A stretch of DNA of 64,000 nucleotides from Aureispira sp. CCB-E (GTDB lineage: Bacteria > Bacteroidota > Bacteroidia > Chitinophagales > Saprospiraceae). Of the stretch, positions 40,701 to 60,119 are shown piece after piece. The DNA is taken from contig NZ_CP133671.1 of NCBI RefSeq assembly GCF_031326345.1, positions 2,666,001 through 2,730,000 on the forward strand, read 5' to 3'. The position numbers were made by a program, and so were the translations under genes. The notes under the pieces were generated by a model, which saw nothing but the letters and a program-made list of their open reading frames with translations, did not search any database and was not told where the DNA came from. The first letter of the stretch is position 1, and each line of letters begins with the position of its first letter.

Positions 40701-43700
40701 GCGACAACCCAAGATCTTTCGAATGTTGCGGCAGGAGCTTATACGTTGACAGTAACCGATGGAAATGGCTGTCGTTATGTAGATAATGCCACTGTTGTTA
40801 ACAATACAGGTGGTTTTGTTCAAACATTTGGCAATGCAGTAGATGAAGTTTGTTCTAATGGACAAGGTTCTATTGATATTTTATTTAGTGGTGGTCAAAC
40901 GCCTTATTCTTACTTGTGGTCAAATGGGGCAACAACAGAAGATTTGATAGGAATTAGTGCAGGAACGTACACTTGTACTGTAACCGATAATGCAGGATGT
41001 GTGCTCATTACACCAAGTTATGTCGTTAATAACAATGCAGGTGGTTTGACATTTAATAACATAGATGTTGACAATGAAACTTGTGCCAACGGGCAAGGAG
41101 AGATTACCTTGAGTATTACTGGCGGACAAGCACCTTATACCTATGCTTGGAATACAGGAGCTAACACAGCAGCCATAACTGGTTTGTCAGCAGGAGCGTA
41201 TACTGCAACGGTAACCGATAATAGTGGTTGTGCTATTTTTACCAACACCTTGAACTTAGCGAACAATAGTGGTAACCTTTCTTTAGATGCAGTACAAGTG
41301 ATGGACGAAACGTGTGGTAGCGGAACTGGTAGTGTAGATATTACGGTATCAGGAAATACAGGTCCGTTGAGTTTTGCATGGAGTAATAGCTCTGCTTCTG
41401 AAGATTTATCCAACTTATCGGCAGGAAATTATAATTGTACGATTACAGATTCTGTCGGTTGTGCAGTATATGCCAATGCAACGGTCAACAATGATCCAGG
41501 AGCCTTGAGTATTGATAATACAATTATCAGCGATGAAACTTGTGGTCAAAATGATGGTTCGGTAACTATTATTGTTTCTGGAGCCAATGCACCTGCTACT
41601 TATGCATGGTCAAATGCTAGTGCGACACAAAATCTATCTAACATCGCAGCTGGAACATATAGTGTAACAGTAACCGATGCTATTGGTTGTACGGTAACAT
41701 CTAATGCTAATGTTCAAAATAATACAGGAACGCTAGCTTTAGCAGGACAAGTATTAACGAATGAAGTTTGTGGGAATGGACAAGGGGCGATTGATATTAG
41801 TATAACGGGGGGAACCGCTCCACTGACTTATTTGTGGTCTAATAACGCCACAACAGAAGATGTATCAGGTTTGACATCAGGAACGTATACTTGTACAATT
41901 TCAGATGCGTCAGGTTGTGATTTGATTGCAGGTCCTTACGTTATTAATAATAGTTCAGGAACATTAACACAAGGAACGCATCTAGTAACAGATGAAACGT
42001 GTGGGAATGGACAAGGGGCGATTGATATTACTGTAACAGGTGGAACGGCACCATTGACTTATTTATGGTCTAATAATGCCACAACAGAAGATTTGACCAA
42101 CTTGTCAGCAGGAACGTATACTGGTACGGTTAGTGATGCTTCGGGTTGTTCGTTAATTATTACAAGAACAGTGAACAACAACGCTGGTGGATTGACGATC
42201 TCGAATGCTCAAGTCGTAGATGAAAACTGTACAGACGGACAAGGGGCAATTGATATCACAATTGCTGGTGGTACTCCTACCTATACCTATGCATGGTCAA
42301 ACTCAGCAACGACAGAAGATTTGACAACTTTAAGTGCTGGAACATATAGCGTAACGGTGACCGATGCCAATGGTTGTGCTGTTTCTAATAGTTATACAGT
42401 TAATAATAATTCTGCCAACTTTCAATTGGCTAACATCAATACGACAAACGAAAATTGTGGAGATGGAACAGGGGCTATTGATGTGACCTTCACTGGAGGA
42501 CAGGCACCCCTTGTATATGCATGGTCAAATGGCGCAACAACCGAGGATTTAACAGGGTTAAATGCAGGCGTGTATGCTGCAACAGTAACAGATGCCAATG
42601 GCTGTGTAATTACACATTCTTCTAGCATCCAAAACGATCCAGGGTCATTAACAGTTTCTAATGATAGTATTGTTGATGCAACTTGTGGAGCAGTTAATGG
42701 AGCTGTTTTCCTCACGATAAGTAACGGTACACCAGGATATACTTATCAATGGTCGAATGGTGCTACTACTCAAAACTTGACAGGCTTGTCAGGAGGGACG
42801 TATACTTGTGTCATTACGGATGCAAACGGATGTACGACAAACTATACGGGAACAGTACAGGATTTGGGCGGTAATTTGCAAATTGCTAATAGTTCTACTG
42901 TAGACGATGCTTGTAATCAAGGAACTGGTTCTATTACAACAACCGTGACAGGTGGTGGACTTCCGTATACTTATAATTGGTCAACGGTCTCATCTAATCC
43001 ATGTTGCAACTATGAGCTGCATATGTTTGATTTAAATGGCAATGGATGGGGAGGTACACCTGCTCCATTTGTAAATGTATATGTCAATAATAATTTAATT
43101 GGTGCCTATACAGTGCCAATAGGTCCAGGAAACTCATTCAATAGCGTTGCTATACCCGTATGTACAGGAGATATCATTGCTGTTGAATACGTTGCTGCGG
43201 CTCAAAATGGTAATAATGCCTACTTATTGCTAAATGCTGCTGGCGATACTGTATTCCAAGATGGTCCTAATCCATTCTCGGGAGGAATTGCCTATACAGG
43301 AAATGTAACTTGTTCTATCAATGGTCAAGGAACCAATAGTATTTCCAACTTATCGGCTGGAAATTATGGTTTAACGGTTACGGATAATTACGGTTGTTCT
43401 GTAACACAAGCCTACACGATTAATAACTCTAGTGGAGCAATTAATATTAGTTTGAATAATCAAGTCGATGAAACTTGTGGTCTAGGAAATGGAGCACTTG
43501 ATGTCACCGTAGGAGGGGCAGCGAATCCAACTTACTTGTGGTCGAATGGTGCAACAACAGAGGATATTACAGGTTTGTCTGCGGGAGCATATACAATGAC
43601 TGCAACAGACCCAAGTAATGGCTGTACAACAGTAGGAAGTTATACGATTGTCAACAATGCCAATGGCTTGGTAGTTACAGATACCTTAGTTACAAATGAA

Positions 43701-46295
43701 ACTTGTGGGAATGGGCAAGGAGCAATTGACCTTACAGTTAGTGGAGGGGCAACACCTTATTCGTTTGCATGGTCGAATGGATCAGGAACAGAGGATATTA
43801 TTCTGTTATCAGCGGGTACTTATATAGTTACTATTACAGATAATACTGGCTGTGATTTAGTAGAAACGTATACCGTTATCAATAATGCCAATGGTATTAC
43901 AGCATCAGCCGTTACAACAGACGAAACTTGTGGTGATGGAACAGGTGCTATTGATATGACAGTAACAGGAGGAACAACACCATATACTTTTGCATGGTCA
44001 AATGGCGCAACAACAGAGGATATTACAGGTCTATCTGCGGGCATATATAATACTACTATTACCGATGCCTCAGGATGTGTTATTGTCTTTGCGGATACAG
44101 TCAACAATACAACTAGTACCGTAACGATTACAAATGTAACGATCGATACTGCTTTCTGTGGTAATAATGATGGAGGCGTTACATTAGCTTTATCTGGTGG
44201 TGCATTACCATTGAGTTTTAATTGGAGTAATGGAGCAACGACTCAAAACCTTACCAATGTAACTCCTGGGACCTATACTTTAACTATAACAGAAGCCAAT
44301 GGATGTATGTTGGTCGATTCTTTTGTAGTGGAGAACAATGCTTTCTTTGATGTGACTGCTACCGTTACCAACGAAGCCTGTGGTGATGGAACGGGGGCTA
44401 TTGATTTAACAATAGCAGCTGGAGGACCTCCTCCATCCTTTGTATGGTCAACAGGAGCAACAACAGAGGATTTAGCCAACCTTTCCGCAGGAACATATTC
44501 CGTAACCATGACGGTTAACTTTGGACCTGGCGGGGGTGGATGTACTCATGTGGAAACGTATCAGGTAATTAATGATTTAGGACCTGTTAATATAGATAGC
44601 TTAGTTGTTACCGATGAAACGTGTAATCAAGCCAATGGTGAAATTGATGCGTATACGTCGATCGATAGTTTCTGTAGCTATACCTTGAATTTGTATGATG
44701 GCTTTGGCTTTGGTTGGCAAGGTTCAAGTGTGACTGTTATCGTTAATGGAGTAAATGTAGGAAACTATACTGCGACAGCGGCTGTTTCTTCCTTTACGAT
44801 CAAAGTTCCTAGCGGGCAAAGCATTCAATTTATTTATAATGAAAGCCCATTTGCACCAGGGCAAGATAGTTATGATGTAGTCTTAAACGGAACGACCGAA
44901 TTTATTTCAGGGCTAAATCCAGTAAATGGCTCTGGGTATACAACTACTTGTACTAGTCCTACGACCTCTGTAACTAGTTTTACCTACTTATGGTCAACAG
45001 GAGCAACAACTCAAAGTATTTCTGCTTTATCAGCAGGTACGTACACCTTATCTATAACCGATAATAATGGTTGTGTAACAATTGATTCCGTCTCTATCCA
45101 AAACAACACATTCGGATTTGGTATTGCTGGTGCATTGCTGACAGACGAACAATGTGGTGATGGTACTGGTGCCATTGATTTGACAATAGGAGGCGGAGCG
45201 AGTCCATATACTTTTGTTTGGAGCAATGGAGCAACAACAGAAGATTTGACAGGTCTTTCAGCTGGAAGCTATGATGTTACGGTAACAGATAACTTAGGTT
45301 GTGCCTTGGTACAATCGTATGTTATTAATAATAATACCAATAATTTTGGAGTTACTGGAACAACAACAGCGGCTAACTGTGCGGCAGCGGATGGTAGTGT
45401 AGATATTACAGTAACTGGAGGAACAAGCCCTTACACTTATGCGTGGAGCAATGGAGCAACAACAGAAGACGTGAGTGCCGTTGTTTCTGGTACCTATGTT
45501 GTAACGATAACAGATGCAGCAGGTTGTATTATTAATGCTACTTATACTGTTGGAAATACAGGTGGTGGTTTAGGATTGACCTCTACACCAACAGCTGCAA
45601 CTTGTAATCAGGCAAATGGCGGTATGATCTTAAATGTAACAGGGGGAACAAGTCCTTATACTTATGCATGGAACAATGGAGCGACAGGAGCTAGTATTTC
45701 GGGTGTATTGGCTGGAAATTATGGTGCAACTATAACTGATGCCAATGGCTGTCAATTATCTGTACCAATTGTAATTCCAAATATCGGAACTCCTGTAGAC
45801 TTTATTTCTGGAGATACAACTTCAACGTCTTGTTCTAGTTGTAGCGATGGTGCGGTTGACTTAACTCTAGGAGGAGCTGGTGCACCTTATACCTTTGTTT
45901 GGAGCAATGGAGCAACAACTGAAGATTTAATAAATGTTGTTCCTGGAGTCTATAATGTAACGATTACAAACGTGGATGGTTGTACAATGGATACTGTATT
46001 TACAGTTGATTTCTCTACGGCAATAGTGGAATTAGAGGGCATGGAACTGAGTGTGTATCCAAACCCATCTAATGGAAGCATTTATGTAGAATTTGCACAA
46101 CTACCAATGGAGCCAATCCAAATTGAAGTGTTCAATGCACTTGGACAACGTGTTATGGAGCGTACTTATGCTCCTCAGTTGATTCAAGAACGTATTCATG
46201 TAGATGTACAAAATGCCAGTACTGGAACTTATATGATGAAAATCTCTTCTGCTGGAAAATACATTACCAAACGAGTGGTTATTTTGAAAGAGTAG
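37728..46295 (+). CDS. Giant SprB-repeat surface protein, type A T9SS sorting domain
   Basis: 2855 residues. A signal peptide (MMRLTLMLAFLFVSVVTHAQ) leads into a choice-of-anchor-L-like domain (about 20-235, with LSEEYNEFVNSGFNDVFAFY). A Calx-beta-like segment (about 255-350), one divergent repeat and a proprotein-convertase P-like domain (about 445-640) come next. About 26 SprB repeats of roughly 65-75 residues follow. The consensus is DETCGxGxGAIDITVTGG, then PYTYxWSNGATTEDLTGLSAG, then TYTVTVTDxxGC. Two repeats are interrupted by an inserted CxYxLxLYDxxGxGW domain (about 1756-1864 and 2313-2410). The C-terminus has VYPNPSNG and a final VVILKE, the type A sorting domain. By analogy with SprB of Flavobacterium, an adhesin in motility or attachment is inferred. 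Confidence 0.9.
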   Translation: MMRLTLMLAFLFVSVVTHAQLSVQKGLTAQQLGNNLAGANINIINPTITGDTSQYGLFNFTGTGLGLSSGVILSTGDIDNAVGPNSNPSTSTSYGLPGDADLTALAGFATQDAVVFEFEFEVQGDELEFNFVFLSEEYNEFVNSGFNDVFAFYISGPGIVGQENLAVVPGTTTPVTINSINNGSFFQFYNDNDASVTNQVNVEFDGFTTLMKARRTNLTPCSVYKLSLRIADGSDDRLDSGVLLQENSLVSNSIAVNSATVSTDTTALEGCIPATFTFNLGATAATDLNIPIRLGGTALNGVDYAFIDSIITIPAGQTSSTVIINALADGITEGRETIELYYSPSSCAPEDTVLLYIDDATSITFDALGTNLNCNGNSSGSINVNITGGAPPYNVTYIDTATGVSNTVPATSLPITGLDATSYLLRISDQYGCTADAIVVGGNFNAGQTFLPDGTGASYTSGINITGFNAGQTLNSINQINSICATMEHSYASDLTIELVAPSGQSIQLKNVGNTGTGVNTCDLGEPIASGPVDNWSTSNTLPGVGYQYCWTNNPTYATMNDMVSPAPPGPPPTHTFTTLAGNTYTDYYLPAGSYAPRQSFFGLLGTSLNGNWTLRVTDNFAQDNGYIFDWSISLQTDLPDSIVTLTEPPAPTMAHTTTDPACGMSNGAIDFSVTGNGPFTYLWSNGATTEDLNNITAGSYTVTVTDGTGCTYDYTVNLSNTGSVTLSAVVTDEACDGSNDGAIDLSVGAGTFTYAWSNSASTEDLTGLAPGTYTVTVSDGTCVGVASYTVDPASTIVVTSSITNENCGDQEGVINISLQGGVTPFTYIWSNGETSQDIDDLQQGNYFVTVTDANNCTTVDSFTVINLVGNCVPSCDLDITSFLASNENCADGTGAVDITVFTTSGPITYLWSNGATTQDISGLSAGSYAVTVTDAINCVDTMSFNIINQASGLSIASMNVTNEFCGNGSGAIDATISGGSLPYTYLWSNGATTQDLSNVAAGAYTLTVTDGNGCRYVDNATVVNNTGGFVQTFGNAVDEVCSNGQGSIDILFSGGQTPYSYLWSNGATTEDLIGISAGTYTCTVTDNAGCVLITPSYVVNNNAGGLTFNNIDVDNETCANGQGEITLSITGGQAPYTYAWNTGANTAAITGLSAGAYTATVTDNSGCAIFTNTLNLANNSGNLSLDAVQVMDETCGSGTGSVDITVSGNTGPLSFAWSNSSASEDLSNLSAGNYNCTITDSVGCAVYANATVNNDPGALSIDNTIISDETCGQNDGSVTIIVSGANAPATYAWSNASATQNLSNIAAGTYSVTVTDAIGCTVTSNANVQNNTGTLALAGQVLTNEVCGNGQGAIDISITGGTAPLTYLWSNNATTEDVSGLTSGTYTCTISDASGCDLIAGPYVINNSSGTLTQGTHLVTDETCGNGQGAIDITVTGGTAPLTYLWSNNATTEDLTNLSAGTYTGTVSDASGCSLIITRTVNNNAGGLTISNAQVVDENCTDGQGAIDITIAGGTPTYTYAWSNSATTEDLTTLSAGTYSVTVTDANGCAVSNSYTVNNNSANFQLANINTTNENCGDGTGAIDVTFTGGQAPLVYAWSNGATTEDLTGLNAGVYAATVTDANGCVITHSSSIQNDPGSLTVSNDSIVDATCGAVNGAVFLTISNGTPGYTYQWSNGATTQNLTGLSGGTYTCVITDANGCTTNYTGTVQDLGGNLQIANSSTVDDACNQGTGSITTTVTGGGLPYTYNWSTVSSNPCCNYELHMFDLNGNGWGGTPAPFVNVYVNNNLIGAYTVPIGPGNSFNSVAIPVCTGDIIAVEYVAAAQNGNNAYLLLNAAGDTVFQDGPNPFSGGIAYTGNVTCSINGQGTNSISNLSAGNYGLTVTDNYGCSVTQAYTINNSSGAINISLNNQVDETCGLGNGALDVTVGGAANPTYLWSNGATTEDITGLSAGAYTMTATDPSNGCTTVGSYTIVNNANGLVVTDTLVTNETCGNGQGAIDLTVSGGATPYSFAWSNGSGTEDIILLSAGTYIVTITDNTGCDLVETYTVINNANGITASAVTTDETCGDGTGAIDMTVTGGTTPYTFAWSNGATTEDITGLSAGIYNTTITDASGCVIVFADTVNNTTSTVTITNVTIDTAFCGNNDGGVTLALSGGALPLSFNWSNGATTQNLTNVTPGTYTLTITEANGCMLVDSFVVENNAFFDVTATVTNEACGDGTGAIDLTIAAGGPPPSFVWSTGATTEDLANLSAGTYSVTMTVNFGPGGGGCTHVETYQVINDLGPVNIDSLVVTDETCNQANGEIDAYTSIDSFCSYTLNLYDGFGFGWQGSSVTVIVNGVNVGNYTATAAVSSFTIKVPSGQSIQFIYNESPFAPGQDSYDVVLNGTTEFISGLNPVNGSGYTTTCTSPTTSVTSFTYLWSTGATTQSISALSAGTYTLSITDNNGCVTIDSVSIQNNTFGFGIAGALLTDEQCGDGTGAIDLTIGGGASPYTFVWSNGATTEDLTGLSAGSYDVTVTDNLGCALVQSYVINNNTNNFGVTGTTTAANCAAADGSVDITVTGGTSPYTYAWSNGATTEDVSAVVSGTYVVTITDAAGCIINATYTVGNTGGGLGLTSTPTAATCNQANGGMILNVTGGTSPYTYAWNNGATGASISGVLAGNYGATITDANGCQLSVPIVIPNIGTPVDFISGDTTSTSCSSCSDGAVDLTLGGAGAPYTFVWSNGATTEDLINVVPGVYNVTITNVDGCTMDTVFTVDFSTAIVELEGMELSVYPNPSNGSIYVEFAQLPMEPIQIEVFNALGQRVMERTYAPQLIQERIHVDVQNASTGTYMMKISSAGKYITKRVVILKE
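42994..43320 (+). other. Domain inserted inside a SprB repeat (first)
   Basis: The repeat starting DDACNQGTGSI runs to YNWST and breaks. About 105 residues follow, starting CCNYELHMFDLNGNGWGG and ending near GNVTCSI. The repeat then resumes at ISNLSAGNYGLTVTDNYGC. The insert is a beta-rich domain bounded by cysteines. Confidence 0.75.
44668..44960 (+). other. Domain inserted inside a SprB repeat (second)
   Basis: The same type of insert (CSYTLNLYDGFGFGWQGSS through TTTCTS, about 97 residues) splits the repeat that starts DETCNQANGEIDA and resumes SFTYLWSTGATTQSI. It is related to the first insert by the CxYxLxxxDxxGxGW opening. Confidence 0.75.
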
Positions 46296-46775: not shown

Positions 46776-49700
46776 ATGAAATTTTTCATTAAATGCTGTT
46801 TGTTGTTAGTCCTTGTGTTGTCATTCAACACTCAAACAAAGGCACAAGCAATTATAACAGTAGATACCATTATTAATGCAACATGTAATGCTTCGGCAGA
46901 TGGAGCCATTCAGATTAGTGTTGCAGGAGTACCGCCATTTACCTATCAATGGAGTAATGGAGCAACTACAGAAGATGTAACAGGTTTGTTTTCTGGTTCC
47001 TTTGTTGTGACTGTTACCGATGGTTTAAGTGGGGTAACCGTCTCTAACGTCCTAACGGTTACAGCACCACCTGTTATTAATGTTGTAGCAGACACGATTA
47101 TTAATATCCTATGTGCAGGTGATTCGACGGGATCTGTTGATTTATCCGTATCGGGAGGTGTACCTGGATATACTTACATTTGGGACAATGGAGCAACCAC
47201 ACAGGATGTGTCAGGTTTGCCCGCAGGACCAATGAATGTAACGGTAACCGACGCCAATGGATGTACAGCTTCGGCTAAAGCAATTGGAATAGATAGTGTA
47301 CCTCCGATTATTGTGACTTTGGATTCTATCGACAATGTTACTTGTAATGGAGCAGCCAATGGAGGTGTTTTTATTAGTGTGACAGGAGGAAGAGGAGGAA
47401 CCTACAACTATTTGTGGAGCAATGGAGCGACTACACAAAATATAACGGGTCTTAGTGGCGGTGCCTATTCGGTGACAGTGACTGATTCTAGCAATTGCGT
47501 CATGCTTTCGGGACCACATATTGTGAACGAACCGAATATACTTGCGGTAACGTTTGATTCATTGCAAAATGTAGATTGTAATGGAAATGGTAATGGAGCC
47601 GTTTTTATAACTGTAACAGGAGGAACTGCGAATTATAATTTTAATTGGTCGAATGGAGCAACAACAGAAGATATTACAGGATTATCTGGAGGTACTTATT
47701 CTGTTGTGGTAACGGATGCCAATGGTTGTGTAGATAGCACAGGACCTCATACTGTAAATGAACCAGCTGTTTTAACGTTGACCCTAGATTCTATTCAGCA
47801 TATAGACTGTAACGGTGATGCTGATGGAGCTGTCTTTGTAACCGTGACAGGGGGGACTACCAATTATACTTATGCTTGGTCAAACTCAGCCACGACTCAA
47901 GATATTACAGGGCTAAATGGAGGAAATTACACCATTACAGTAACGGATGCGAATGGTTGTACAGTAAGTGATACAGCTTATGTTGTAAATGAACCACCTG
48001 TATTAGTGGCTACTTTAGATTCTATTGTAGATGTGAGTTGTAATGGTTTTGGAAATGGAGGTGTCTTTATTAGTGTAACAGGAGGAACAACGAATTATAA
48101 CTTCTTATGGAGCAATGGAGTAACAACAGAAGATAATCCCAACATAGGAGGTGGTAGTTATACCGTTACGATCACGGATGCCAATGGTTGTTCTGTTACA
48201 TCTGGTCCACATATCGTTGTGGAGCCAGCAGGGATGACGGTGACCTTAGATTCTATTAACAATGTGAGTTGTAATGGGGCAAATGATGGAGGCGTGTTCA
48301 TTACAGTAACAGGAGGAGCACCAAACTATACTTATTTGTGGTCGAATACAGCAACAACAGAAGATATTACAGGTTTAAGTGGAGGTAGTTATATTATTAC
48401 GGTAACGGATGCGAATGGTTGTACGGTTAGTTCAGGACCACATGTAGTAACCGAAGCTCCTGCCTTGGTCATCACTTTAGACTCTATCGACAATGTAAGT
48501 TGTAATGGAGCAAATGATGGAGCCGTATTTATCACAGCAACAGGCGGCACAAGTGGATATACCTATGCATGGTCAAATACAGGCAGCAGTCAAAACATTA
48601 CAGGTTTAGGCGGTGGTTCATACACCGTGACAGTAACGGATGCGGCAGGCTGTACGGCAGTATCAGGACCACACGTTGTGATGGAACCTACGCAACTAGT
48701 AGCGACTTTGGATTCTATTAATAATGTCAGTTGTAATGGCTTGAGTGATGGTGGTGTATTTGTAAGTATTACAGGTGGAACAGTACCCTTCAGTTATTTG
48801 TGGAGCAATGGAGCGACGACAGAAGATGCAACAGGTTTAATTGCAGGATCGTATACCTTGACCGTAACGGATACCAATGGTTGTACGGCAACAACAGGAC
48901 CACATGTAGTAACAGAGCCAACTGCTTTGGTTATCACCTTAGATTCTATCGATAATGTAAGTTGTAATGGAGCAGCTGACGGAGGTGTGTTTATCACAGC
49001 AACAGGCGGAACAGGATCGTATACTTATGCATGGTCGAATACAGGCAGTAGCCAAAACATTACAGGTTTGAGTGGCGGTTCGTACACCGTAACGGTAACG
49101 GATGCGAATGGTTGTACGGTTAGTTCAGGACCACATGTAGTAACCGAAGCCCCTGCCTTGGTCATCACTTTAGACTCTATCGACAATGTAAGTTGTAATG
49201 GAGCAAATGATGGAGCCGTATTTATCACAGCAACAGGCGGCACAGGTGGGTATATCTATGCATGGTCGAATACAGGCAGCAGTCAAAACATCACTGGTTT
49301 GGGTGGTGGTTCATACACCGTGACAGTAACGGATGCGGCAGGCTGTACGGCAGTATCAGGACCACACGTTGTGACGGAACCTACGCAACTAGTAGCGACT
49401 TTGGATTCTATTAATAATGTCAGTTGTAATGGCTTGAGTGATGGTGGTGTATTTGTAAGTATTACAGGTGGAACAGTACCATTCAGTTATTTGTGGAGTA
49501 ATGGAGCAACAACCGAAGATGCAACAGGTTTAATTGCAGGATCGTATACTTTGACCGTAACGGATACCAATGGTTGTACGGCAACAACAGGACCACATAT
49601 AGTAACAGAGCCAACTGCTTTGGTTATCACCTTAGATTCTATCGATAATGTAAGTTGTAATGGAGCAGCTGACGGAGGTGTGTTTATCACAGCAACAGGT

Positions 49701-52700
49701 GGAACAGGAGTATACACTTATGCATGGTCGAATACAGGCAGTAGCCAAAACATCACAGGTTTGAGTGGCGGTTCGTACACTGTAACGGTAACGGATGCCA
49801 ATGGATGTACAGCGGTATCAGGACCACATGTAGTGACCGAAGCCCCTGCCTTGGTCATCACTTTAGACTCTATCGACAATGTAAGTTGTAATGGAGCAAA
49901 TGATGGAGCCGTATTTATCACAGCAACAGGCGGCACAGGTGGGTATACCTATGCATGGTCGAATACAGGCAGCAGTCAAAACATTACAGGTTTAGGCGGT
50001 GGTTCATACACCGTTACAGTAACAGATGCGGCAGGCTGTACGGTAGTATCAGGACCACACGTTGTGACGGAACCTACGCAACTAGTAGCGACTTTGGATT
50101 CTATTAATAATGTCAGTTGTAATGGCTTGAGTGATGGTGGTGTATTTGTAAGCATTACAGGTGGAACAGTACCATTCAGTTATTTATGGAGCAATGGAGC
50201 GACGACAGAAGATGCAACAGGTTTAATTGCAGGATCGTATACCTTAACCGTAACGGATACCAATGGTTGTACGGCAACAACAGGACCACATGTAGTAACA
50301 GAGCCAACTGCTTTGGTTATCACCTTAGATTCTATCGATAATGTAAGTTGTAATGGAGCAGCTGATGGAGGTGTGTTTATCACAGCAACAGGCGGAACAG
50401 GAGCATACACTTATGCATGGTCGAATACAGGCAGCAGTCAAAATATTACAGGTTTGAGTGGTGGTTCGTACACCGTAACGGTAACGAATGCCAATGGATG
50501 TACAGCGGTATCAGGACCACATGTAGTGACCGAAGCCCCTGCCTTGGTCATCACTTTAGACTCTATCGACAATGTAAGTTGTAATGGAGCAAATGATGGA
50601 GCCGTATTTATCACAGCAACAGGCGGCACAGGTGGGTATACCTATGCATGGTCGAATACAGGCAGCAGTCAAAACATTACAGGTTTAGGCGGTGGTTCAT
50701 ACACCGTTACAGTAACAGATGCGGCAGGCTGTACGGTAGTATCAGGACCACACGTTGTGACGGAACCTACGCAACTAGTAGCGACTTTGGATTCTATTAA
50801 TAATGTCAGTTGTAATGGCTTGAGTGATGGTGGTGTATTTGTAAGCATTACAGGTGGAACAGTACCATTCAGTTATTTATGGAGCAATGGAGCGACGACA
50901 GAAGATGCAACAGGTTTAATTGCAGGATCGTATACCTTAACCGTAACGGATACCAATGGTTGTACGGCAACAACAGGACCACATGTAGTAACAGAGCCAA
51001 CTGCTTTGGTTATCACCTTAGATTCTATCGATAATGTAAGTTGTAATGGAGCAGCTGACGGAGGTGTGTTTATCACAGCAACAGGCGGAACAGGAGCATA
51101 CACTTATGCATGGTCAAATACAGGCAGTAGCCAAAACATCACAGGTTTGAGTGGCGGTTCATACACCGTAACGGTAACGGATGCCAATGGATGTACACAG
51201 ACAAGTGGACCTCTTAGTGTAAGTGAACCTACAACTTTAGATATTGTCATAGATAGTTTTAAAAATGAAAGCTGTTTTGGTATTATTGATGGATTTATCA
51301 GTACGACAGCTACAGGAGGAACAGCGCCATATAGCTACTTATGGAATACAGGTGCTACCGTAGATGATCTTACGAACTTAATAGCAGGAACGTATACCAT
51401 TACAGTAACCGATACCAATGGCTGTACTGCTATAGATACTGTTACGATTAATGATATTCCTACAATAACCGTTACACTAGATGGAATTGATTCAGTTTCT
51501 TGTAATGGATTGAGCGATGGAGCTGTTTCTATAACAACGACTTTAGGCGCACCTGGCTATACTTGGTTGTGGAGCACAGGAGCAACGACGGAAGACTTAA
51601 GTGGCGTTTCAATAGGAAATTATACCTTAACTGTAACAGATGCATTGGGTTGTACCATAACTGCTGGAGCTTATACGGTGGAGGAACCAGCCATTCTGGC
51701 AATTACGTTAGACAATAGTACTGATGTCAGTTGTAATGGGGCTGCAGATGGTGCTGTCATGATGACAACAACAGGGGGAACAAGTACCTACACGTATGCT
51801 TGGTCTAATGGTCAAGTGACAGAAGACATTACAGGATTAAGTGGTAGCTCTAATACGGTGACCGTAACGGATTTTAATGGTTGTACCGCAACATCAGGAC
51901 CACATATTGTAAATGAGGCAAGCGCAATTGTTGTCACAATAGACAATATTGATTCGGTAAGCTGTAATGGAGCAGCGGATGGAGCGATTGCTATTTCCGT
52001 ATCAGGAGGAACACCTGCTTATTCTTACAACTGGGATAACGGAGGAGGAACAACTGAAGATTTGACGAATTTGAGTGGTAATACTTATACTGTAACGGTG
52101 ACGGATGGAGCTAATTGTACGGTAACATCAGGACCACATGTTGTCTTAGAACCAGCAGCATTAAATGTAGTAATAACAGCAACTGTTCCTTTGGAAGGAT
52201 GTCTGGGAGAACCATTTGGTGCTTTGGATGCAGCGGCATCAGGCGGAACGGGAACCGCTACTTATCAGTGGTCAAATAGTATAACAACGGCATCTAATGC
52301 AGGTTTAAATACAGGAATTTATACTGTTACAGTAACGGATGCGAATGGTTGTACTGCAACAGCGGTAGATTCTATACAAGACCCTGTTCGACCAGTTGTC
52401 AATCCATTTGTTGGGCAAGCATTTGTAACCGATACGACAGTTAATTGGGGAGATATTATTAATATTAATGCAGGAAATGACCAGACATCAAACGGTGTTA
52501 ATTATACTTGGGAAGATGTTACTAATTTGGGTGATGTGAATTTTGGTAGTAATACAGCGTCTGCCACAAGCATTCGACCAGAACCAACAACATCAGGAAC
52601 ATATACTTTATTAGTAACAGCAACATCAGCCGATGGTTGTGTGGATACAGGTTCGGTTTATGTGACTGTTAATATCAATGATTTGTTGGGAATTCCAACT

Positions 52701-52955
52701 GCTTTTACTCCTAATGGAGACGGCGTTAATGATTATTTCCGACCAGCAAACTTAGATCCACAATTTATTGTAGAATACAAGATTTATAATCGTTGGGGAC
52801 AATTGCTCTTTGACGATACGAATACAACGAATCAGTGGGATGGTCGTTTTAATGGAGTCGATCAGCCGACAGAAGTATACATTTATTTATTGCGTTATCA
52901 GGTTCCAGGGCAAGATGCGCGTATATTGAGAGGCGAGTTTACATTACTTCGATAA
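46776..52955 (+). CDS. SprB-repeat surface protein with CHU_C-type (type B) T9SS sorting domain
   Basis: 2059 residues. The signal peptide (hydrophobic 5-18, ending TKAQA) leads directly into about 24 SprB repeats of about 77 residues, based on LDSIxNVSCNGxxDGGVFITVTGG and YxWSNGATTEDITGLSGG plus VTVTDANGCTxxSGPHVV. Repeats 8-19 form four near-identical triplets (see the 693-bp repeat). A last unrelated beta domain (about 1880-1965) precedes a CHU_C/gliding-motility-associated C-terminus (about 1969-2059): IPTAFTPNGDGVNDYF, YNRWGQLLF, W-DGRFNG. That is the type B sorting domain. It is likely a filamentous cell-surface adhesin. No SprF/PorP-like gene is adjacent, although type B cargo often has one. 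Confidence 0.92.
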   Translation: MKFFIKCCLLLVLVLSFNTQTKAQAIITVDTIINATCNASADGAIQISVAGVPPFTYQWSNGATTEDVTGLFSGSFVVTVTDGLSGVTVSNVLTVTAPPVINVVADTIINILCAGDSTGSVDLSVSGGVPGYTYIWDNGATTQDVSGLPAGPMNVTVTDANGCTASAKAIGIDSVPPIIVTLDSIDNVTCNGAANGGVFISVTGGRGGTYNYLWSNGATTQNITGLSGGAYSVTVTDSSNCVMLSGPHIVNEPNILAVTFDSLQNVDCNGNGNGAVFITVTGGTANYNFNWSNGATTEDITGLSGGTYSVVVTDANGCVDSTGPHTVNEPAVLTLTLDSIQHIDCNGDADGAVFVTVTGGTTNYTYAWSNSATTQDITGLNGGNYTITVTDANGCTVSDTAYVVNEPPVLVATLDSIVDVSCNGFGNGGVFISVTGGTTNYNFLWSNGVTTEDNPNIGGGSYTVTITDANGCSVTSGPHIVVEPAGMTVTLDSINNVSCNGANDGGVFITVTGGAPNYTYLWSNTATTEDITGLSGGSYIITVTDANGCTVSSGPHVVTEAPALVITLDSIDNVSCNGANDGAVFITATGGTSGYTYAWSNTGSSQNITGLGGGSYTVTVTDAAGCTAVSGPHVVMEPTQLVATLDSINNVSCNGLSDGGVFVSITGGTVPFSYLWSNGATTEDATGLIAGSYTLTVTDTNGCTATTGPHVVTEPTALVITLDSIDNVSCNGAADGGVFITATGGTGSYTYAWSNTGSSQNITGLSGGSYTVTVTDANGCTVSSGPHVVTEAPALVITLDSIDNVSCNGANDGAVFITATGGTGGYIYAWSNTGSSQNITGLGGGSYTVTVTDAAGCTAVSGPHVVTEPTQLVATLDSINNVSCNGLSDGGVFVSITGGTVPFSYLWSNGATTEDATGLIAGSYTLTVTDTNGCTATTGPHIVTEPTALVITLDSIDNVSCNGAADGGVFITATGGTGVYTYAWSNTGSSQNITGLSGGSYTVTVTDANGCTAVSGPHVVTEAPALVITLDSIDNVSCNGANDGAVFITATGGTGGYTYAWSNTGSSQNITGLGGGSYTVTVTDAAGCTVVSGPHVVTEPTQLVATLDSINNVSCNGLSDGGVFVSITGGTVPFSYLWSNGATTEDATGLIAGSYTLTVTDTNGCTATTGPHVVTEPTALVITLDSIDNVSCNGAADGGVFITATGGTGAYTYAWSNTGSSQNITGLSGGSYTVTVTNANGCTAVSGPHVVTEAPALVITLDSIDNVSCNGANDGAVFITATGGTGGYTYAWSNTGSSQNITGLGGGSYTVTVTDAAGCTVVSGPHVVTEPTQLVATLDSINNVSCNGLSDGGVFVSITGGTVPFSYLWSNGATTEDATGLIAGSYTLTVTDTNGCTATTGPHVVTEPTALVITLDSIDNVSCNGAADGGVFITATGGTGAYTYAWSNTGSSQNITGLSGGSYTVTVTDANGCTQTSGPLSVSEPTTLDIVIDSFKNESCFGIIDGFISTTATGGTAPYSYLWNTGATVDDLTNLIAGTYTITVTDTNGCTAIDTVTINDIPTITVTLDGIDSVSCNGLSDGAVSITTTLGAPGYTWLWSTGATTEDLSGVSIGNYTLTVTDALGCTITAGAYTVEEPAILAITLDNSTDVSCNGAADGAVMMTTTGGTSTYTYAWSNGQVTEDITGLSGSSNTVTVTDFNGCTATSGPHIVNEASAIVVTIDNIDSVSCNGAADGAIAISVSGGTPAYSYNWDNGGGTTEDLTNLSGNTYTVTVTDGANCTVTSGPHVVLEPAALNVVITATVPLEGCLGEPFGALDAAASGGTGTATYQWSNSITTASNAGLNTGIYTVTVTDANGCTATAVDSIQDPVRPVVNPFVGQAFVTDTTVNWGDIININAGNDQTSNGVNYTWEDVTNLGDVNFGSNTASATSIRPEPTTSGTYTLLVTATSADGCVDTGSVYVTVNINDLLGIPTAFTPNGDGVNDYFRPANLDPQFIVEYKIYNRWGQLLFDDTNTTNQWDGRFNGVDQPTEVYIYLLRYQVPGQDARILRGEFTLLR
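48471..51197 (+). repeat. Higher-order tandem repeat, four copies of a 693-bp unit
   Basis: Units start at 48471, 49164, 49857 and 50550; the last ends near 51197. Each 693-bp unit encodes three different 77-residue SprB repeats in the order A-B-C. Units are nearly identical in DNA, while A, B and C differ clearly from one another. Units 3 and 4 share private changes (for example GTAGTATCAGG in A, where units 1 and 2 have GCAGTATCAGG), so they look like the latest duplication. Flanking repeats are much more divergent. Confidence 0.92.
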
Positions 52956-54217: not shown

Positions 54218-54757
54218 TTGACGGAGCAAGAACTCATAGAAAGATGTAAGCGCAACGATAGGTTGGCGCAAAAGGCTTTGTACGAGCGGTTCTCTTCCAA
54301 AATGTTTGGGGTCTGTAGGCGTTATGTCAAAACAGTCGAAAACACAGAGGAAGTGTTAATGTTAGCTTTTTGCAAAGTGTTTAAAAAAATTGATACCTAC
54401 TCAGGCAATGGAAGCTTTGAGGGGTGGATCAGACGTGTAATGGTAAATGAATCATTGATGTTTTTGCGAAAAAATTATCGTTTTAATGAGCATGCTGATA
54501 TTAGCGAATTGCCTGTGAAGGCAGTGGAAGTAAATGTAGAAGATGAATTAGCAGCACAAGATATTTTGAACTTACTGGAACAATTGCCTACTGGGTACAG
54601 AACCGTCTTTAACTTGTATGTTATAGAAGGATTCAAGCATAGAGAAATTGCAGAACAACTTGGCATTAGTATTAATACATCTAAATCGCAGTTGATTTTG
54701 GCGAAAAAGAAACTACAGGAAATGATTAAAAAATCAGAACAATTGGGAAGCAATTAA
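54218..54757 (+). CDS. ECF-type RNA polymerase sigma factor (module 1)
   Basis: 179 residues. Region 2 (about 20-90: ALYERFSSKMFGVCRRYVK, AFCKVFKKIDTY, FEGWIRRVMVNESLMFLRK) and region 4 (about 115-170: LEQLPTGYRTVFNLYVIEG, HREIAEQLGISINTSKSQL) are both present. The start is a TTG at 54218: it gives the standard MTEQELIERCK opening, and no ATG occurs for the next 28 codons. The gene after it is a predicted membrane-bound regulator, suggesting a sigma/anti-sigma pair. Gap to that gene: 140 bases. Confidence 0.93.
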   Translation: MTEQELIERCKRNDRLAQKALYERFSSKMFGVCRRYVKTVENTEEVLMLAFCKVFKKIDTYSGNGSFEGWIRRVMVNESLMFLRKNYRFNEHADISELPVKAVEVNVEDELAAQDILNLLEQLPTGYRTVFNLYVIEGFKHREIAEQLGISINTSKSQLILAKKKLQEMIKKSEQLGSN

Positions 54758-54897
54758 AAAAATTAAAAAATAAGAAGATTCAGAAACATATTACAAATAA
54801 ATTGGGTTTGAACCCATAAAGGGAATAAACATCAACTTGTTAGACAAGAATAGAACTAAATGATTAAAAGAAACCAACCAAAGATAATTAATTAATT

Positions 54898-56220
54898 ATG
54901 AGCAGAGATGATTACATTTCTAAACTGTTTATAAAAAATCAGGACAAGCTAGAACAACCGCCTTCTAACGACCTTTGGTCTAAATTAGAAATGCAGTTAG
55001 ATCAAGAGCTACCTGTCACTGAAAACACAACTGGAGGTGCCACTTCGGCTACTAAGGTGATCGGTTTATCAAAGTATTTAGCAGCAGCCTCTGTATTGGT
55101 TGTTTTGGCTAGTGTCGCTTATATGTTCCGATCTATAGAAACTTCTAATATGGATCAAAAAACCTTAGAAGCTCCCTTGGCAATTTATACAGATGTGGAA
55201 GAGGAGACAGAAGAAGAACCTTACGAGTCGTACAAAGATTTTCCTGCTAAAACAGAAGCAGAAAAAGCAAAGGAGGAAGTACAACAAGCAGAAAAAATTG
55301 TAGAAGCGGTGAACGAAAAAGTATTGAAGGAAAATATTGTGGTTCCTAATACAATGAAAAATTCTACTTCTTCTTCTAAGAAAATTGAATTGGACGATAT
55401 TGAAATTGTAGATGAAAAAGAAGTCAATGACTTGATTGTCATCGAACCTGAAATACCTGATGAAACAGTTTTGGCAAGAACGACAAACATACCAACGAAT
55501 ACTAGAGCAGATTTGTACCAAAATGATGTTCCTGTGGAGCAAGAGGATTTAAATTACAACAGAAATTATATTCCTCAAATTGCTAACACGATAGACAATA
55601 ATAGCGTTGTGGAAGAGGTCTTGAATCAATCAAAAGATAAAGAAACGATTAGTGCTACGAAAAAATTTAAGTCAAGTACTCGAAAAAGAGGTGCAGGAAG
55701 GGGAAAAATTGTCGGAAAAGAAAAGAAGACAGTAAAGAAAATAAAATCTCCGATGGCATCAGCCCACCAACGTTTATATCCTTTTGGATTTTTGTTGGGT
55801 AAATGGGAGGACGATAATGAGATAGGAGGGAAGTCTTACGAAATGTGGACACTTAAAAACTCGACCACTCTAGTTGGCAAAGGATATAAATTGTCTAACA
55901 GCGCAGAACGAATTTTTGAAGAAGTTATGCGAATCGAATTTAGAGACAATCAAATCTTTTTAGTAATGAGCCTAGATGAAGATAAAACAACTGTAGATTA
56001 TATGCTGTCTACTTTTGATAATGAACGCTTTATTTTTGAACAGCAGATGTCTAAAAATTATCCAGATAAAGTAATTATTCAGAAAAGTGGTTTGGATGGT
56101 TATTCGGTTATTATTACCAATAATCATAATTTTCTAACAACTGACCAACAACGCTATTTGGAGAACCGAAATAGAGTATCGAATGTTCAGTCTATGCGGA
56201 CCATGCATTATAAAGATTAG
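54898..56220 (+). CDS. Putative anti-sigma factor with extracytoplasmic DUF6265-like domain
   Basis: 440 residues. A short cytoplasmic N-terminus (about 1-55; LFIKNQDKLEQPPSNDLWSKLE) resembles the sigma-binding end of Bacteroidota anti-sigma proteins. One transmembrane helix follows (about 59-79). A long charged linker (about 90-290) rich in Glu/Lys leads to a C-terminal domain (about 297-410) starting PFGFLLGKWEDD, with YEMWTLKNSTTLVGKGY. That last domain matches the DUF6265 lipocalin-like pattern. The inferred role is holding the sigma factor at 54218 and responding to a signal outside the inner membrane. A strong terminator follows. Confidence 0.75.
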   Translation: MSRDDYISKLFIKNQDKLEQPPSNDLWSKLEMQLDQELPVTENTTGGATSATKVIGLSKYLAAASVLVVLASVAYMFRSIETSNMDQKTLEAPLAIYTDVEEETEEEPYESYKDFPAKTEAEKAKEEVQQAEKIVEAVNEKVLKENIVVPNTMKNSTSSSKKIELDDIEIVDEKEVNDLIVIEPEIPDETVLARTTNIPTNTRADLYQNDVPVEQEDLNYNRNYIPQIANTIDNNSVVEEVLNQSKDKETISATKKFKSSTRKRGAGRGKIVGKEKKTVKKIKSPMASAHQRLYPFGFLLGKWEDDNEIGGKSYEMWTLKNSTTLVGKGYKLSNSAERIFEEVMRIEFRDNQIFLVMSLDEDKTTVDYMLSTFDNERFIFEQQMSKNYPDKVIIQKSGLDGYSVIITNNHNFLTTDQQRYLENRNRVSNVQSMRTMHYKD

Positions 56221-56294: not shown

Positions 56295-56478
56295 ATTTTA
56301 GGACGCTGCACATTTCCTCCTCAATAAAAAACTAAGCTTGTACTTTCTGCCCCTGAATGATTATAATTAATGGGTGATTATATAAAAAGTCTATAGGCTT
56401 TTTTTGCTGTATAAAATTACGTAACTTTGAAGCTTTATAGTTTATTACAGTTAGTCTTGTAAGTACCTAATTCACTAA

Positions 56479-57051
56479 ATGACACAAGAGAATAATAACG
56501 ACTTATTACGACGTTTAAAAGAGAATGATAAGACTGCTTTGAAAGAAATATTTCAAGAGCATTATCCTGTTGTATATCGTGCCATATTTCGGATTGTATC
56601 TGACCAGGGAATAGCAGAAGATTTGGCTCAAGATGTATTTATGCGATTATGGGAAAAGCGGGATAGGATTGATATTCAAGGAGCATTGGGTGCTTATATT
56701 CGCAGAATGGCAGTAAACGAGGCATTGGGGTATTTACGTAAAAATAAAAAATACACCATAGAGGAAGTGGCGGATTATCACAGCCCTCTAACAATTAGTG
56801 GTGAAGATACTTATCTTGATAACGAGTTGCAGGCAGAAGTTAATAGGGCAATCGAAACCTTACCGCCAAGGTGCAAAGCGGTATTTATGTTAAGTCGCTT
56901 TGAGGAATTGTCTTACAAAGAAATTAGCCAAAAATTAGACATTTCTCCTAAAACTGTCGAAAATCAAATTTCAAAAGCTTTAAAAACGTTACGAAAAGCC
57001 TTAAAAAGCTATTTAAGTAGTTTTTTAATTTTTTGTATGTGGTATTTTTAG
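56479..57051 (+). CDS. ECF-type RNA polymerase sigma factor (module 2)
   Basis: 190 residues. Region 2 (about 12-90: ALKEIFQEHYPVVYRAIFRI, AEDLAQDVFMRLWEKRD, GAYIRRMAVNEALGYLRK) and region 4 (about 120-175: LPPRCKAVFMLSRFEELSYKEISQKLDISPKTVENQIS) match the FecI-like group of Bacteroidota. The C-terminus is hydrophobic (YLSSFLIFCMWYF), a feature shared by many FecR-linked sigma factors. It is followed by fecR and the STN protein in the same direction. Confidence 0.94.
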   Translation: MTQENNNDLLRRLKENDKTALKEIFQEHYPVVYRAIFRIVSDQGIAEDLAQDVFMRLWEKRDRIDIQGALGAYIRRMAVNEALGYLRKNKKYTIEEVADYHSPLTISGEDTYLDNELQAEVNRAIETLPPRCKAVFMLSRFEELSYKEISQKLDISPKTVENQISKALKTLRKALKSYLSSFLIFCMWYF

Positions 57052-57235
57052 CAATTGCCTCAACCTTACGTTACGCATTTTACACTTCTTTTTACTCTTT
57101 GGCATCCTTACCAGCACATTTGACTTCCCACTACATTAGATAAAACTATAAAAAAGTATTTTTTTTCTAAAAAAAATATTTTGATGTAGGGGGGAGGGCT
57201 GAAAATAGCATCATCATTAATAGAAAGCAGAAAAT

Positions 57236-58240
57236 ATGGACTCTAACAATAACAAATATCTTACACTCCTTAGTAAAGTACTAACAAAAAGCGCCTCTTT
57301 AGAAGAGAAGGAGCAGTTAGAGCAATGGGCAAATGAGAATGATGCACAAAAAGCATTTGTAGAGGAAACGCTAGAAGTTTGGAATTTATCTAAAAATTAT
57401 GCAGAAGATTTGCCAGTCGATACCAATCGTGCTTGGGATAAATTGGAAGCAAAATTAGAAGTTAAAACACCTCAACCTACTATATGGCGAAGTTTGGCTT
57501 CTTATTGGAAAGCTGCGGTAATCGCTGGTTTGGTAGCAACGTCTGTATTTTGGATTGCTTCTCGGAATGCGGTAAGTGTGGAAACTGTTTTGGAAATTGT
57601 AGAAACAGGAGAGCAAGAGCAAAAAGAATTAATTCTGCCCGATGGATCGTTGGTGTTGTTGAATGAAAATTCTTCTTTGGCTTATGCTAAAGATTTTAAG
57701 GTTCGAACAGTTGATTTAAAAGGAGAGGCATTTTTTGATGTGACAAAAAAGAACGGTCAGTCGTTTGAAATTAATACAAGCACTACAAAAACTAAAGTGT
57801 TGGGTACGTCGTTTAATATACGTGCTTATGACCAAACTCCAGTGGAGGTAGCTGTCGTGACAGGAAAAGTTGCTGTAGAAAGCGTTCAAGAAGGAAACAA
57901 AGAGTCGGTTCTGTTACTGCCAAATGAAACGGTTGTTTATGATGCAGCAGTTAAAAAAATGGTGAAAACGGTTGAACCAACCAATAATTCCGTGGCTTGG
58001 AAAACACAAGAACTAGTTTTTGATAATACGGAATTGGGGAGTGTGATTAAAACGTTGGAACGTTATTTTGAAGTAAAAATTGAGGGAGATCCTAAGATAT
58101 TAAATTGTCATTATACAGGAACCTTCAAAGAACCAAAACTAGGAGAAGTATTTAATACCATAGCTTTTACGTTTCCAACTGATTTGGAAATCAAGAAAGT
58201 AGATGAGAAATATATCCTTATTGGTCAAGGATGTGAATAA
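57236..58240 (+). CDS. FecR-family anti-sigma / signal transducer
   Basis: 334 residues. The cytoplasmic helical N-terminus (about 1-85) binds the sigma factor. One transmembrane helix lies at about 90-108. A FecR domain (about 112-225: LILPDGSLVLLNENSSLAY, VDLKGEAFFDV, TTKTKVLGTSFNIRAY) and a DUF4974 domain (about 255-330) extend into the periplasm. In the classic system FecR receives the signal from an STN domain at the N-terminus of a TonB-dependent receptor. Here the next gene, 25 bases downstream, supplies an STN domain in a different kind of protein. The sigma gene is 184 bases upstream. Confidence 0.94.
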   Translation: MDSNNNKYLTLLSKVLTKSASLEEKEQLEQWANENDAQKAFVEETLEVWNLSKNYAEDLPVDTNRAWDKLEAKLEVKTPQPTIWRSLASYWKAAVIAGLVATSVFWIASRNAVSVETVLEIVETGEQEQKELILPDGSLVLLNENSSLAYAKDFKVRTVDLKGEAFFDVTKKNGQSFEINTSTTKTKVLGTSFNIRAYDQTPVEVAVVTGKVAVESVQEGNKESVLLLPNETVVYDAAVKKMVKTVEPTNNSVAWKTQELVFDNTELGSVIKTLERYFEVKIEGDPKILNCHYTGTFKEPKLGEVFNTIAFTFPTDLEIKKVDEKYILIGQGCE

Positions 58241-58265
58241 AATTTTACGAGAAACAAGCATTCAC

Positions 58266-60119
58266 ATGATTAATAAGAAAAATATAGTAACAGTAGTTTT
58301 ACTGTTATCTTTTTTGGGATTGTATGCACAGAAACCCTCTGATGCACAGAGGGTTAATGTGCATTTTTCAAAAGTTTCTTTAAAAGAAATTTTGGCGCAA
58401 ATTAGTGCTGATTATCAGGTACATTTTTCGTATGGAAATGACCATTTAGCACTCAATGAAAAAATATCGTTTCACAGCGAAGGTAAAAGCCTAGAAAAAA
58501 CCTTAGAACAGTTATTTGAGGATAATAATATCATATACAGAACTATTGGTTCTCAATTGGTACTCAAACCTGGCTCGAATAAAAATAAAAAAAGAAACGA
58601 ACGCAAGAAACGTAAAAAAAGAAGAGAAGCGATACGAGAAGAACGGGATAAAGAAACTCTAGAAAGGGGAACGCTGTTTGATTTTGATATTCATTCTGAA
58701 ATCATTGGAAACAAAGATTTATCCTTAGAGGAAGAAGAGCTTCGTAGAAGCCCTATTCCTACCGATCCTATTCAGGCAATTAATACAGAGGAGATAAATG
58801 GGGTTTATTATCGAGATACGCTACAAAAAGAAGAGCCTAACCATGTAGACCCAGGTAAATACCGAAACACAAAAACTTCCTTTGGGCAATTTTCTGTATT
58901 GCCTTTTTTGTCTAGCAATAGACATCGAAGCCGATTTAATGTTTTCTCATTTAATTTGATTTGGGGCATTAATGGTGGTGTGAATGGATTTGAATTTGGT
59001 CTAGTTGGAAATAGTATTAAGCGTCACGTACACGGTTTGCAAATCGGAGGCTTTTTTAACAATGCAGAAGGGCATTTGTATGGAGCGCAAGCTTCCGCTA
59101 TTCTAAATGTTGTTAAAGGCGATATTGTCGGGCTTCAATTTGCAGGGTTGTGGAATTTGGGAGGAAATATATATGGATCTCAAGTCAGTATTTTAGGTAA
59201 TATAGCTAGAGATTTGTATGGTATGCAGTTTGGAGGATTGAGTAATATCGCAACCGATGTATATGGTTTCCAAGTTTCAGGTTTGTTCAACTTTGCGAAT
59301 GGTAAATTGTACGGGTCGCAAATTGCTGGCTTTGGCAACATTGCATGGGGAGGGAAAAGTGCTGTTCAGTTTGCAGGTTTGTTTAACATTAGTGCCAAAG
59401 CACAATTTCAAATAGGTGGCTTTTTTAATTCTGCTCAATCGGTTGATGGGGCGCAATTAGGAGGTTTGAATATCGGAAAAAATGTTAAAGGGGTGCAAAT
59501 GGGGGTTATTAATACCACCAAAGAACTGGAAGGTTTCCAAATTGGATTAATTAACCATGCCAAAAAAGCTCAAGGTTTGATGCTTGGCTTAATCAATATA
59601 GCAGATAGTATTAAAGGAGCTCCTATTGGACTCATTAATATTGTCAATAAGAACGGATACAACCGAATAGAAGTATTTGGTACGGATGCGATGTATGTTA
59701 ACTTAGGAGCAAAATTTGGCTTCGAACGTTATTATCATATTTTACAAATAGGATGGCGAGTGAGTGCTGATAATGTTTTTACTTGGACGGCTGGCGTAGG
59801 TGTTGGTACCAAACTTAATTTAAACAAAACGCTACATCTTAATTTTGAATTACTTACTTCTCATGTCAATGAGAACGACTTATGGACGAAAGAACTCAAT
59901 TTACTCAATCAGTTTAAAACAACCTTAGATGTTCGAGTTCGAGATCGAGTTAGCTTTTTTGTAGGACCTGTTTTTAATGCATTAGTCTCTGGTTTATACA
60001 ATGAAGAAACACAACGATATGGCTCTAATATCATGCCTTACACTTTGTTTGACCAAACGAACCAAAAAGGAACCAATCTTAAATTATGGATAGGTCTTAC
60101 TGCTGGATTAAGATTCTAA
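58266..60119 (+). CDS. STN domain fused to LA_2272-like surface-repeat protein
   Basis: 617 residues from the ATG at 58266, which yields a signal peptide (MINKKN, hydrophobic run, LYAQ); the frame extends upstream into fecR but without sense. Residues about 27-103 form an STN domain (VNVHFSKVSLKEILAQI, FSYGNDHLAL, LSFH-type turn, LEQLFEDNNIIYRTIGSQLVLKP). A very basic linker (about 108-135) and an acidic stretch follow. About 14 repeats of 15-20 residues come next (about 240-480), with the pattern GxQxGGLxNxA. They recall the LA_2272 surface-repeat family. The C-terminal ~130 residues look like beta-barrel strands ending in LRF. No plug or TonB-dependent barrel is present. It is presumably the outer-membrane input to the FecR at 57236. 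Confidence 0.8.
   Translation: MINKKNIVTVVLLLSFLGLYAQKPSDAQRVNVHFSKVSLKEILAQISADYQVHFSYGNDHLALNEKISFHSEGKSLEKTLEQLFEDNNIIYRTIGSQLVLKPGSNKNKKRNERKKRKKRREAIREERDKETLERGTLFDFDIHSEIIGNKDLSLEEEELRRSPIPTDPIQAINTEEINGVYYRDTLQKEEPNHVDPGKYRNTKTSFGQFSVLPFLSSNRHRSRFNVFSFNLIWGINGGVNGFEFGLVGNSIKRHVHGLQIGGFFNNAEGHLYGAQASAILNVVKGDIVGLQFAGLWNLGGNIYGSQVSILGNIARDLYGMQFGGLSNIATDVYGFQVSGLFNFANGKLYGSQIAGFGNIAWGGKSAVQFAGLFNISAKAQFQIGGFFNSAQSVDGAQLGGLNIGKNVKGVQMGVINTTKELEGFQIGLINHAKKAQGLMLGLINIADSIKGAPIGLINIVNKNGYNRIEVFGTDAMYVNLGAKFGFERYYHILQIGWRVSADNVFTWTAGVGVGTKLNLNKTLHLNFELLTSHVNENDLWTKELNLLNQFKTTLDVRVRDRVSFFVGPVFNALVSGLYNEETQRYGSNIMPYTLFDQTNQKGTNLKLWIGLTAGLRF

Follow-up and report, generated by a model that had tools for sequence, protein, structure and literature searches.

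A plug-less STN/repeat protein behind sigma and fecR genes in Aureispira: a candidate partner in Fec-type surface signalling

Anatomy of the locus

The stretch of DNA analysed here, 64 kb in length and hereafter called the window, is part of the 7.39-Mb genome of a marine Aureispira (Saprospiria, Bacteroidota; genome G000). Between positions 56479 and 60119 it carries three genes in a row, all on the plus strand, which encode an extracytoplasmic function (ECF) sigma factor, a FecR anti-sigma factor and a protein of 617 amino acids (aa) that joins an STN domain to an array of surface-type repeats. The same STN/repeat protein is found on a contig of Aureispira sp. CCB-QB1, with 99.8% identity across 617 residues. 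The features of the locus are as follows.

56422–56429, plus strand: TAnnTTTG-type box TAACTTTG, 5' of the sigma gene
56479–57051, plus strand: ECF sigma factor, 190 aa (TIGR02985, PF04542, PF08281)
57236–58240, plus strand: FecR anti-sigma factor, 334 aa (PF04773, PF16344), with a C-terminal STN-like FecR_C domain
58266–60119, plus strand: STN/repeat protein, 617 aa, starting 25 nucleotides (nt) past fecR; probably an outer-membrane protein
58326–58556, plus strand: STN domain, residues 21–97 (PF07660, PF16344; profile match to the FecR C-terminus)
58575–58658, plus strand: basic linker, residues 104–131, with 15 K/R in 28 residues
58986–59657, plus strand: 15 GxQxGGLxN-type repeats, residues 241–464, motif spacing 14–16 aa (NF047436)
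59658–60116, plus strand: C-terminal beta region, residues 465–617, last residue F; conserved across 18 A1 rows

Domain models and composition bore out the anatomy given in a preliminary description of this DNA, which had listed an ECF sigma factor, FecR, and a protein with a signal peptide, an STN domain, a basic linker, repeats and a beta-like C-terminus. The sigma factor matches TIGR02985 with 150.2 bits (cut-off 126.4; E 5.5e-44). FecR matches both PF04773 (71.6 bits, E 7.7e-20) and the FecR_C model PF16344 (48.8 bits, E 7.1e-13) above their cut-offs, and contains a single hydrophobic helix as judged by eye. It also matches PDB chains 4m0n (E 2.5e-27) and 4m0h (E 4.7e-27), a putative anti-sigma factor, as well as 6ovk (E 1.7e-5), an entry listed as a siderophore-interacting protein, which we take to be PupR. 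The TAACTTTG box upstream, presumably the Bacteroidota housekeeping -7 box, is identical in three of the five aligned Aureispira sequences (the window, G003a and G003b) and changed in the other two (G004 and G007).

For the STN/repeat gene we preferred the ATG at 58266 over that at 58203, and the resulting hydrophobic N-terminus, again judged by eye, marks the protein as exported. Its STN domain scores 29.6 bits with PF07660 (cut-off 28.4) and, overlapping, 25.0 bits with PF16344 (cut-off 24.4); aligned to the FecR C-terminus with hhalign, the STN profile gave a probability of 92.6 and an E value of 4.6e-7. Within the repeat array, where the preliminary description had seen about 14 units, we count 15 (14 by pattern and one added by eye), with G at the first place in 13/15 and Q at the third in 12/15. 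The pattern GxQx[GAS] occurs 10 times in residues 205–470, whereas 2000 shuffles yielded it 0.8 times on average and never more than 5 times, and the LA_2272_repeat model NF047436 scores 51.9 bits on the protein (cut-off 25). Tandem Repeats Finder reported no array across the repeat region, just three short arrays elsewhere in the gene, so the repeats have diverged at the DNA level and recent or phase-variable DNA repeats can be rejected. Several of the last 14-aa repeats (59448–59657) read Q-x-G-x-x-N, which we take to resemble curlin repeats; no curlin model matched the window proteins.

The protein was said to lack a plug and a TonB-dependent barrel, and this held: neither Plug nor TonB-barrel (TonB_dep_Rec) models matched it at E<=1, and neither matched any of 18 family members, this protein included, at E<=0.01. 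A hidden plug or TonB receptor is thus rejected. At the same threshold of E<=0.01, the 18 aligned members match STN in 13 cases, FecR_C in 10 and CarboxypepD_reg in two. The latter two (L049 and L052, by alignment) have CarboxypepD_reg after STN and ahead of the repeats, an arrangement also seen in receptors. Seven loci, L040–L046, share by eye a linker motif, Q-x-[ST]-P-[IL]-Y (for example QTSPIY), between STN and repeats, a place where transducers carry the TonB box.

Structure prediction was of limited use. The full-length model reached a pLDDT (predicted local distance difference test) of 33, which is useless, and an AlphaFold model of the body alone reached 43, its best part (about 60–74) spanning fragment residues 51–160. 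The body model has two strands per repeat, and its C-terminal half lies under 50. Foldseek with this model returned nothing significant (best E 0.69), many of the top rows being parallel beta-helix proteins.

Recurrence and a tethered form of the same module

The three-gene order was then followed in 120 fetched stretches, a hand-picked and not a random sample: 60 chosen by hand from class and family draws with long body matches favoured, 20 first relatives (one of them from the window's own genome, L055), 20 low-scoring stretches and 20 more. Every repeat-body gene of at least 250 aa in these stretches was classed as STN, tethered or bare, a sigma gene being sought within 2500 nt upstream for STN genes and within 600 nt for the other classes. 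The profiles drew on 13 sigma, 17 FecR and 18 STN/repeat sequences from the first loci, which are themselves inside the counts. Two loci, L152 and L159, were first called tethered by a strict cut-off and moved to the STN class because STN matched at E<=1e-3; L246, which may hold part of a tethered gene, was placed in the bare class. The low-scoring set comprises 19 loci, 18 of them with a recognised body gene, which bears neither the STN nor the tethered head; L220 shows no body gene.

Excluding the window gene, we found 89 STN+repeat genes in 88 genomes, 70 genera and 29 families. In 85 of the 89, a FecR gene on the same strand lies no more than 600 nt upstream, and both sigma and FecR lie upstream in 73, so that the order seen in the window recurs. 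None of the three refuting outcomes named in the preliminary description (a plug or TonB barrel in the protein, poor alignment to STN profiles, no recurrence of the gene order) therefore came about. The four genes without a FecR so placed are those of L043, where the contig extends just 131 nt upstream; L197, whose FecR lies about 1.7 kb upstream; L198, which has no more than a FecR fragment; and L264, where none was found. Bare repeat bodies had neither sigma nor FecR within 600 nt upstream in any of 37 cases. The body therefore exists alone, and the STN-bearing body is found nearly always behind fecR.

Profile A1 matched 113/295 genomes in the class draw and 119/150 in the family draw; many of the matches listed are to the STN part alone of open reading frames (ORFs) of 870–1240 aa, ordinary receptors by size. 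The repeat model NF047436 alone matched 41/296 genomes in a phylum draw and 0/14 control genomes. At the threshold applied it failed to recover the gene in the window itself, which makes it a poor probe for this family. Viral contigs held no relative.

A tethered version of the same module, outside the scope of the preliminary description, was found in ten other genomes, nine of family f3 and one of family f14, two families of the same taxonomic order (L051, L245 and L247–L254). In these proteins the repeat body lacks STN and is preceded by a head of about 48 residues, a membrane helix near residue 50 and a tether of some 245–340 residues; segment, helix and tether were seen in the nine aligned proteins, the contig of the tenth (L253) beginning inside the head. 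A region similar to the A1 C-terminal beta region is also present in this group (A3), and the last residue is F in all 10 tethered proteins and in 67/87 STN members. None of the ten has a FecR. A sigma gene lies at most 600 nt upstream in eight, the exceptions being L253 and L249. In the loci examined the two wirings, STN with FecR and covalent tether, are mutually exclusive. The head of nine members gave no match to Pfam or NCBIfam anti-sigma models, and the helix is the sole part that aligned with the FecR N-terminus. The order of parts is that outlined for Dma proteins, in which an anti-sigma segment, a helix, a long disordered tether and a C-terminal beta barrel adjoin an ECF21 sigma gene (Pardue and co-workers, PMC13088901); we liken the two by layout, with the sigma gene adjoining in 8/10, and not by sequence.

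In a tree of 121 C-terminal regions the three labels cluster, needing 18 changes against a shuffled mean of 32.3; 17 changes are required for the STN form, 17 for the bare form and two for the tethered rows. The tree dropped 16 of 137 rows without a C-terminal match and has many long branches, so that it is unsafe for direction or single origin.

The STN and tethered forms are further linked by a common neighbour, DUF2807, which is sparse otherwise. It occurs in the fetched stretch of 38/89 STN loci (22 from the family of the window and 16 from ten other families) and 9/10 tethered loci, as against 0/19 low-scoring loci, and Pfam confirmed it in all three tethered-group genes scanned. As a background, 10 genomes totalling about 39.5 Mb gave 35 matches, roughly 1% per 10 kb. 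The idea that DUF2807 always stands beside sigma genes was rejected, since just 2/16 DUF2807 loci in nine genomes have one, and one of these is an STN locus already counted. In addition, a small barrel-like gene follows within five same-strand ORFs downstream in 26/77 loci; the one scanned scored 28.3 bits with OMP_b-brl (cut-off 28.7). By the same profiles, the 64-kb window contains neither DUF2807 nor a receptor-like ORF.

In the window's genome the FecR model finds three places, namely the window locus, L055 (G000:C1:5773000-5786000) and L268 (G000:C1:1933000-1948000). At L055 a sigma-fecR pair precedes a tandem of three genes whose N-termini are STN-like; two of them combine FecR_C, CarboxypepD and Plug, and the third is cut by the edge of the stretch. 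Ordinary Fec wiring is therefore also present in this genome, and a plug-less STN as its general habit is rejected. L268 has a sigma-fecR pair without an adjoining STN gene, the next gene lying on the opposite strand. Closer to the locus, at 54218–56220, another ECF sigma gene precedes the gene for a protein of 440 aa. This protein shows a hydrophobic helix by eye and an extended acidic stretch, and its C-terminus resembles DUF6265 (PF19780, 22.6 bits, under the cut-off of 23.8); it is perhaps another tethered anti-sigma factor. Two giant proteins with 25 and 23 stretches of SprB repeats (37728–46295 and 46776–52955) both bear type IX secretion signals, Por_Secre_tail and CHU_C.

A proposed mechanism and its alternatives

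We favour, with moderate confidence, the reading that the window locus is a Fec-type surface-signalling unit whose outer-membrane partner is not a TonB receptor, and that STN-FecR docking would connect here a module that is wired covalently elsewhere. The repeat/beta protein would reside in the outer membrane and reach into the periplasm with its STN domain; most STN members end in F, as an outer-membrane protein might, and the C-terminal half of the body model, where a barrel would be looked for, stays below a pLDDT of 50. STN would dock on the STN-like C-terminus of FecR, and FecR would stay protected and retain the sigma factor. This step is drawn by analogy with FoxA/FoxR, for which docking of the STN and anti-sigma C-terminal domains is outlined as protecting the anti-sigma factor (PMC11637429). 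A change of state in the outer-membrane protein, be it ligand binding, failed assembly, loss or detachment of an envelope layer, might then alter docking, upon which FecR would be cleaved and the sigma factor freed, presumably independently of TonB. In the other group, a long tether and a membrane helix link the same module covalently to a sigma-adjacent segment, in the Dma anti-sigma layout. That this group has neither STN nor FecR fits the idea that the joint job of these two is to connect the body to the sigma factor.

Several observations weigh against this proposal. The models leave the fold of the body unsettled, and the PF07660 score of the window protein is barely above its cut-off. 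A sigma gene was not found upstream in 16/89 STN genes, of which just L043, L054 and L185 have less than 1.5 kb of upstream sequence. The counts are not independent, because the loci were hand-picked and are related, and the two changes needed on the tree leave a single origin of the tethered rows unsupported. Across 68 loci, distances of the STN domain and the FecR C-terminus correlate weakly (partial r 0.125, p 0.016), and other pairs of segments more strongly, barrel and FecR middle reaching 0.323.

A further point against it, and the source of its most serious rival, lies in the neighbouring genes. A TonB-receptor-like ORF without STN accompanies 38/89 of the STN loci and 3/10 of the tethered ones, compared with 1/19 low-scoring loci, so that the transporter may sit on a separate protein. 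In such a split transducer, the STN-less receptor would bind the ligand and use TonB, the repeat protein would relay the signal to FecR, and the circuit would be TonB-driven. In Pfam scans of 14 such neighbours, 12 from STN loci and two from tethered ones, Plug was found at E<0.01 in 14/14 and STN in 0/14. Most of the Plug scores, however, fall close to the cut-off or below it, the receptor may itself be one of the genes under regulation, and over half of the STN loci have no receptor in the fetched stretch, as is the case for the whole window. We consider a split transducer unlikely, but it has to be taken seriously. It also bears on the earlier suggestion that the repeat body replaces the transporter: a plug-less unit does exist and recurs, whereas functional replacement does not follow, given the receptor-like genes nearby. 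The system may, as was also suggested there, sense a surface structure or the condition of the repeat array itself.

The repeat protein could also be the regulated product itself, its STN domain reporting the assembled quantity, so that free FecR would signal shortage and the sigma factor would raise synthesis in response to no external signal. The gene order and the mostly short gaps between FecR and STN genes suit a single operon, and in 14/77 loci (for example L037:8224-9507, L173 and L176) one of the next five same-strand ORFs downstream is a further repeat gene that lacks STN. Yet the box 5' of the sigma gene looks like a housekeeping element, as far as the consensus and a five-sequence alignment, beyond which no sigma-specific motif was sought, can tell, and we regard such control of amount as improbable. 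Least credible of all is that a surface-repeat adhesin acquired its STN segment next to sigma-fecR and has ceased to signal, for although the marginal STN score and the missing sigma genes noted above would agree with a leftover, the pairing of STN with FecR in 85/89 genes from 29 families and the absence of both from the tethered group speak against it.

Beyond the single locus, the preferred reading of an STN-FecR unit with a plug-less partner opens a wider possibility, which we put forward tentatively and at somewhat less than even chances: a large undescribed class of TonB-free signalling in Bacteroidota, in which the repeat module would inform an ECF sigma factor of the physical state of the outer membrane, or of its attachment to the inner membrane, the wiring being swapped between STN-FecR docking and a covalent tether. 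A literature search in which most subscription journals and all bioRxiv preprints lay outside the coverage returned no account of an STN/repeat protein without plug as the partner of FecR. Classical Fec-type signalling goes through a TonB-powered transporter. Separating STN-FecR signalling from transport is described as experimentally difficult (2022 FEMS review, PMC9249621), and a widespread form without plug and barrel would allow the former to be studied apart from the latter. Two wirings of one module would amount to a natural experiment, asking whether FecR and STN together act as a breakable trans-envelope tether and what a surface protein of the outer membrane can report without ligand uptake. 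A widespread circuit that ends in a repeat-built surface protein in place of the usual nutrient transporter suggests another route by which cells may signal the condition of their surface to the genome.

Comparison with known systems

The window system resembles the Fec-type systems FecI/FecR/FecA, PupI/PupR/PupB and FoxI/FoxR/FoxA in having an ECF sigma gene next to fecR, a FecR with a periplasmic FecR domain and an STN-like C-terminus that matches solved anti-sigma chains, and a partner protein with an N-terminal STN domain. It departs from them beyond that domain: no plug or TonB barrel was detected in the window partner, whose body consists of a repeat array and a C-terminal beta region. 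The protein is therefore not filed as a TonB-dependent transducer, in spite of being alike up to the STN domain, because the transporter was sought and not found.

Through its body, the protein shares with the LA_2272 surface-repeat proteins the same repeat model, NF047436, above cut-off. It differs from the LA_2272/LA_2273 lipoprotein model (22.3 against a cut-off of 30) and from the VC2662 family model (38.2 against 140).

The Dma and window systems are alike in that both tie an outer-membrane beta module, a probable one in the window, to an ECF sigma factor without a TonB receptor. Dma does so in one chain, with anti-sigma segment, helix, tether and barrel, whereas the window protein is separate, with an exported N-terminus, an STN domain and a FecR of its own. 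We do not count it as a Dma because the anti-sigma factor and the outer-membrane part are separate proteins. If the proposed swap of wirings is true, Fec and Dma signalling would form one continuum, with the repeat body as a transducer in its own right.

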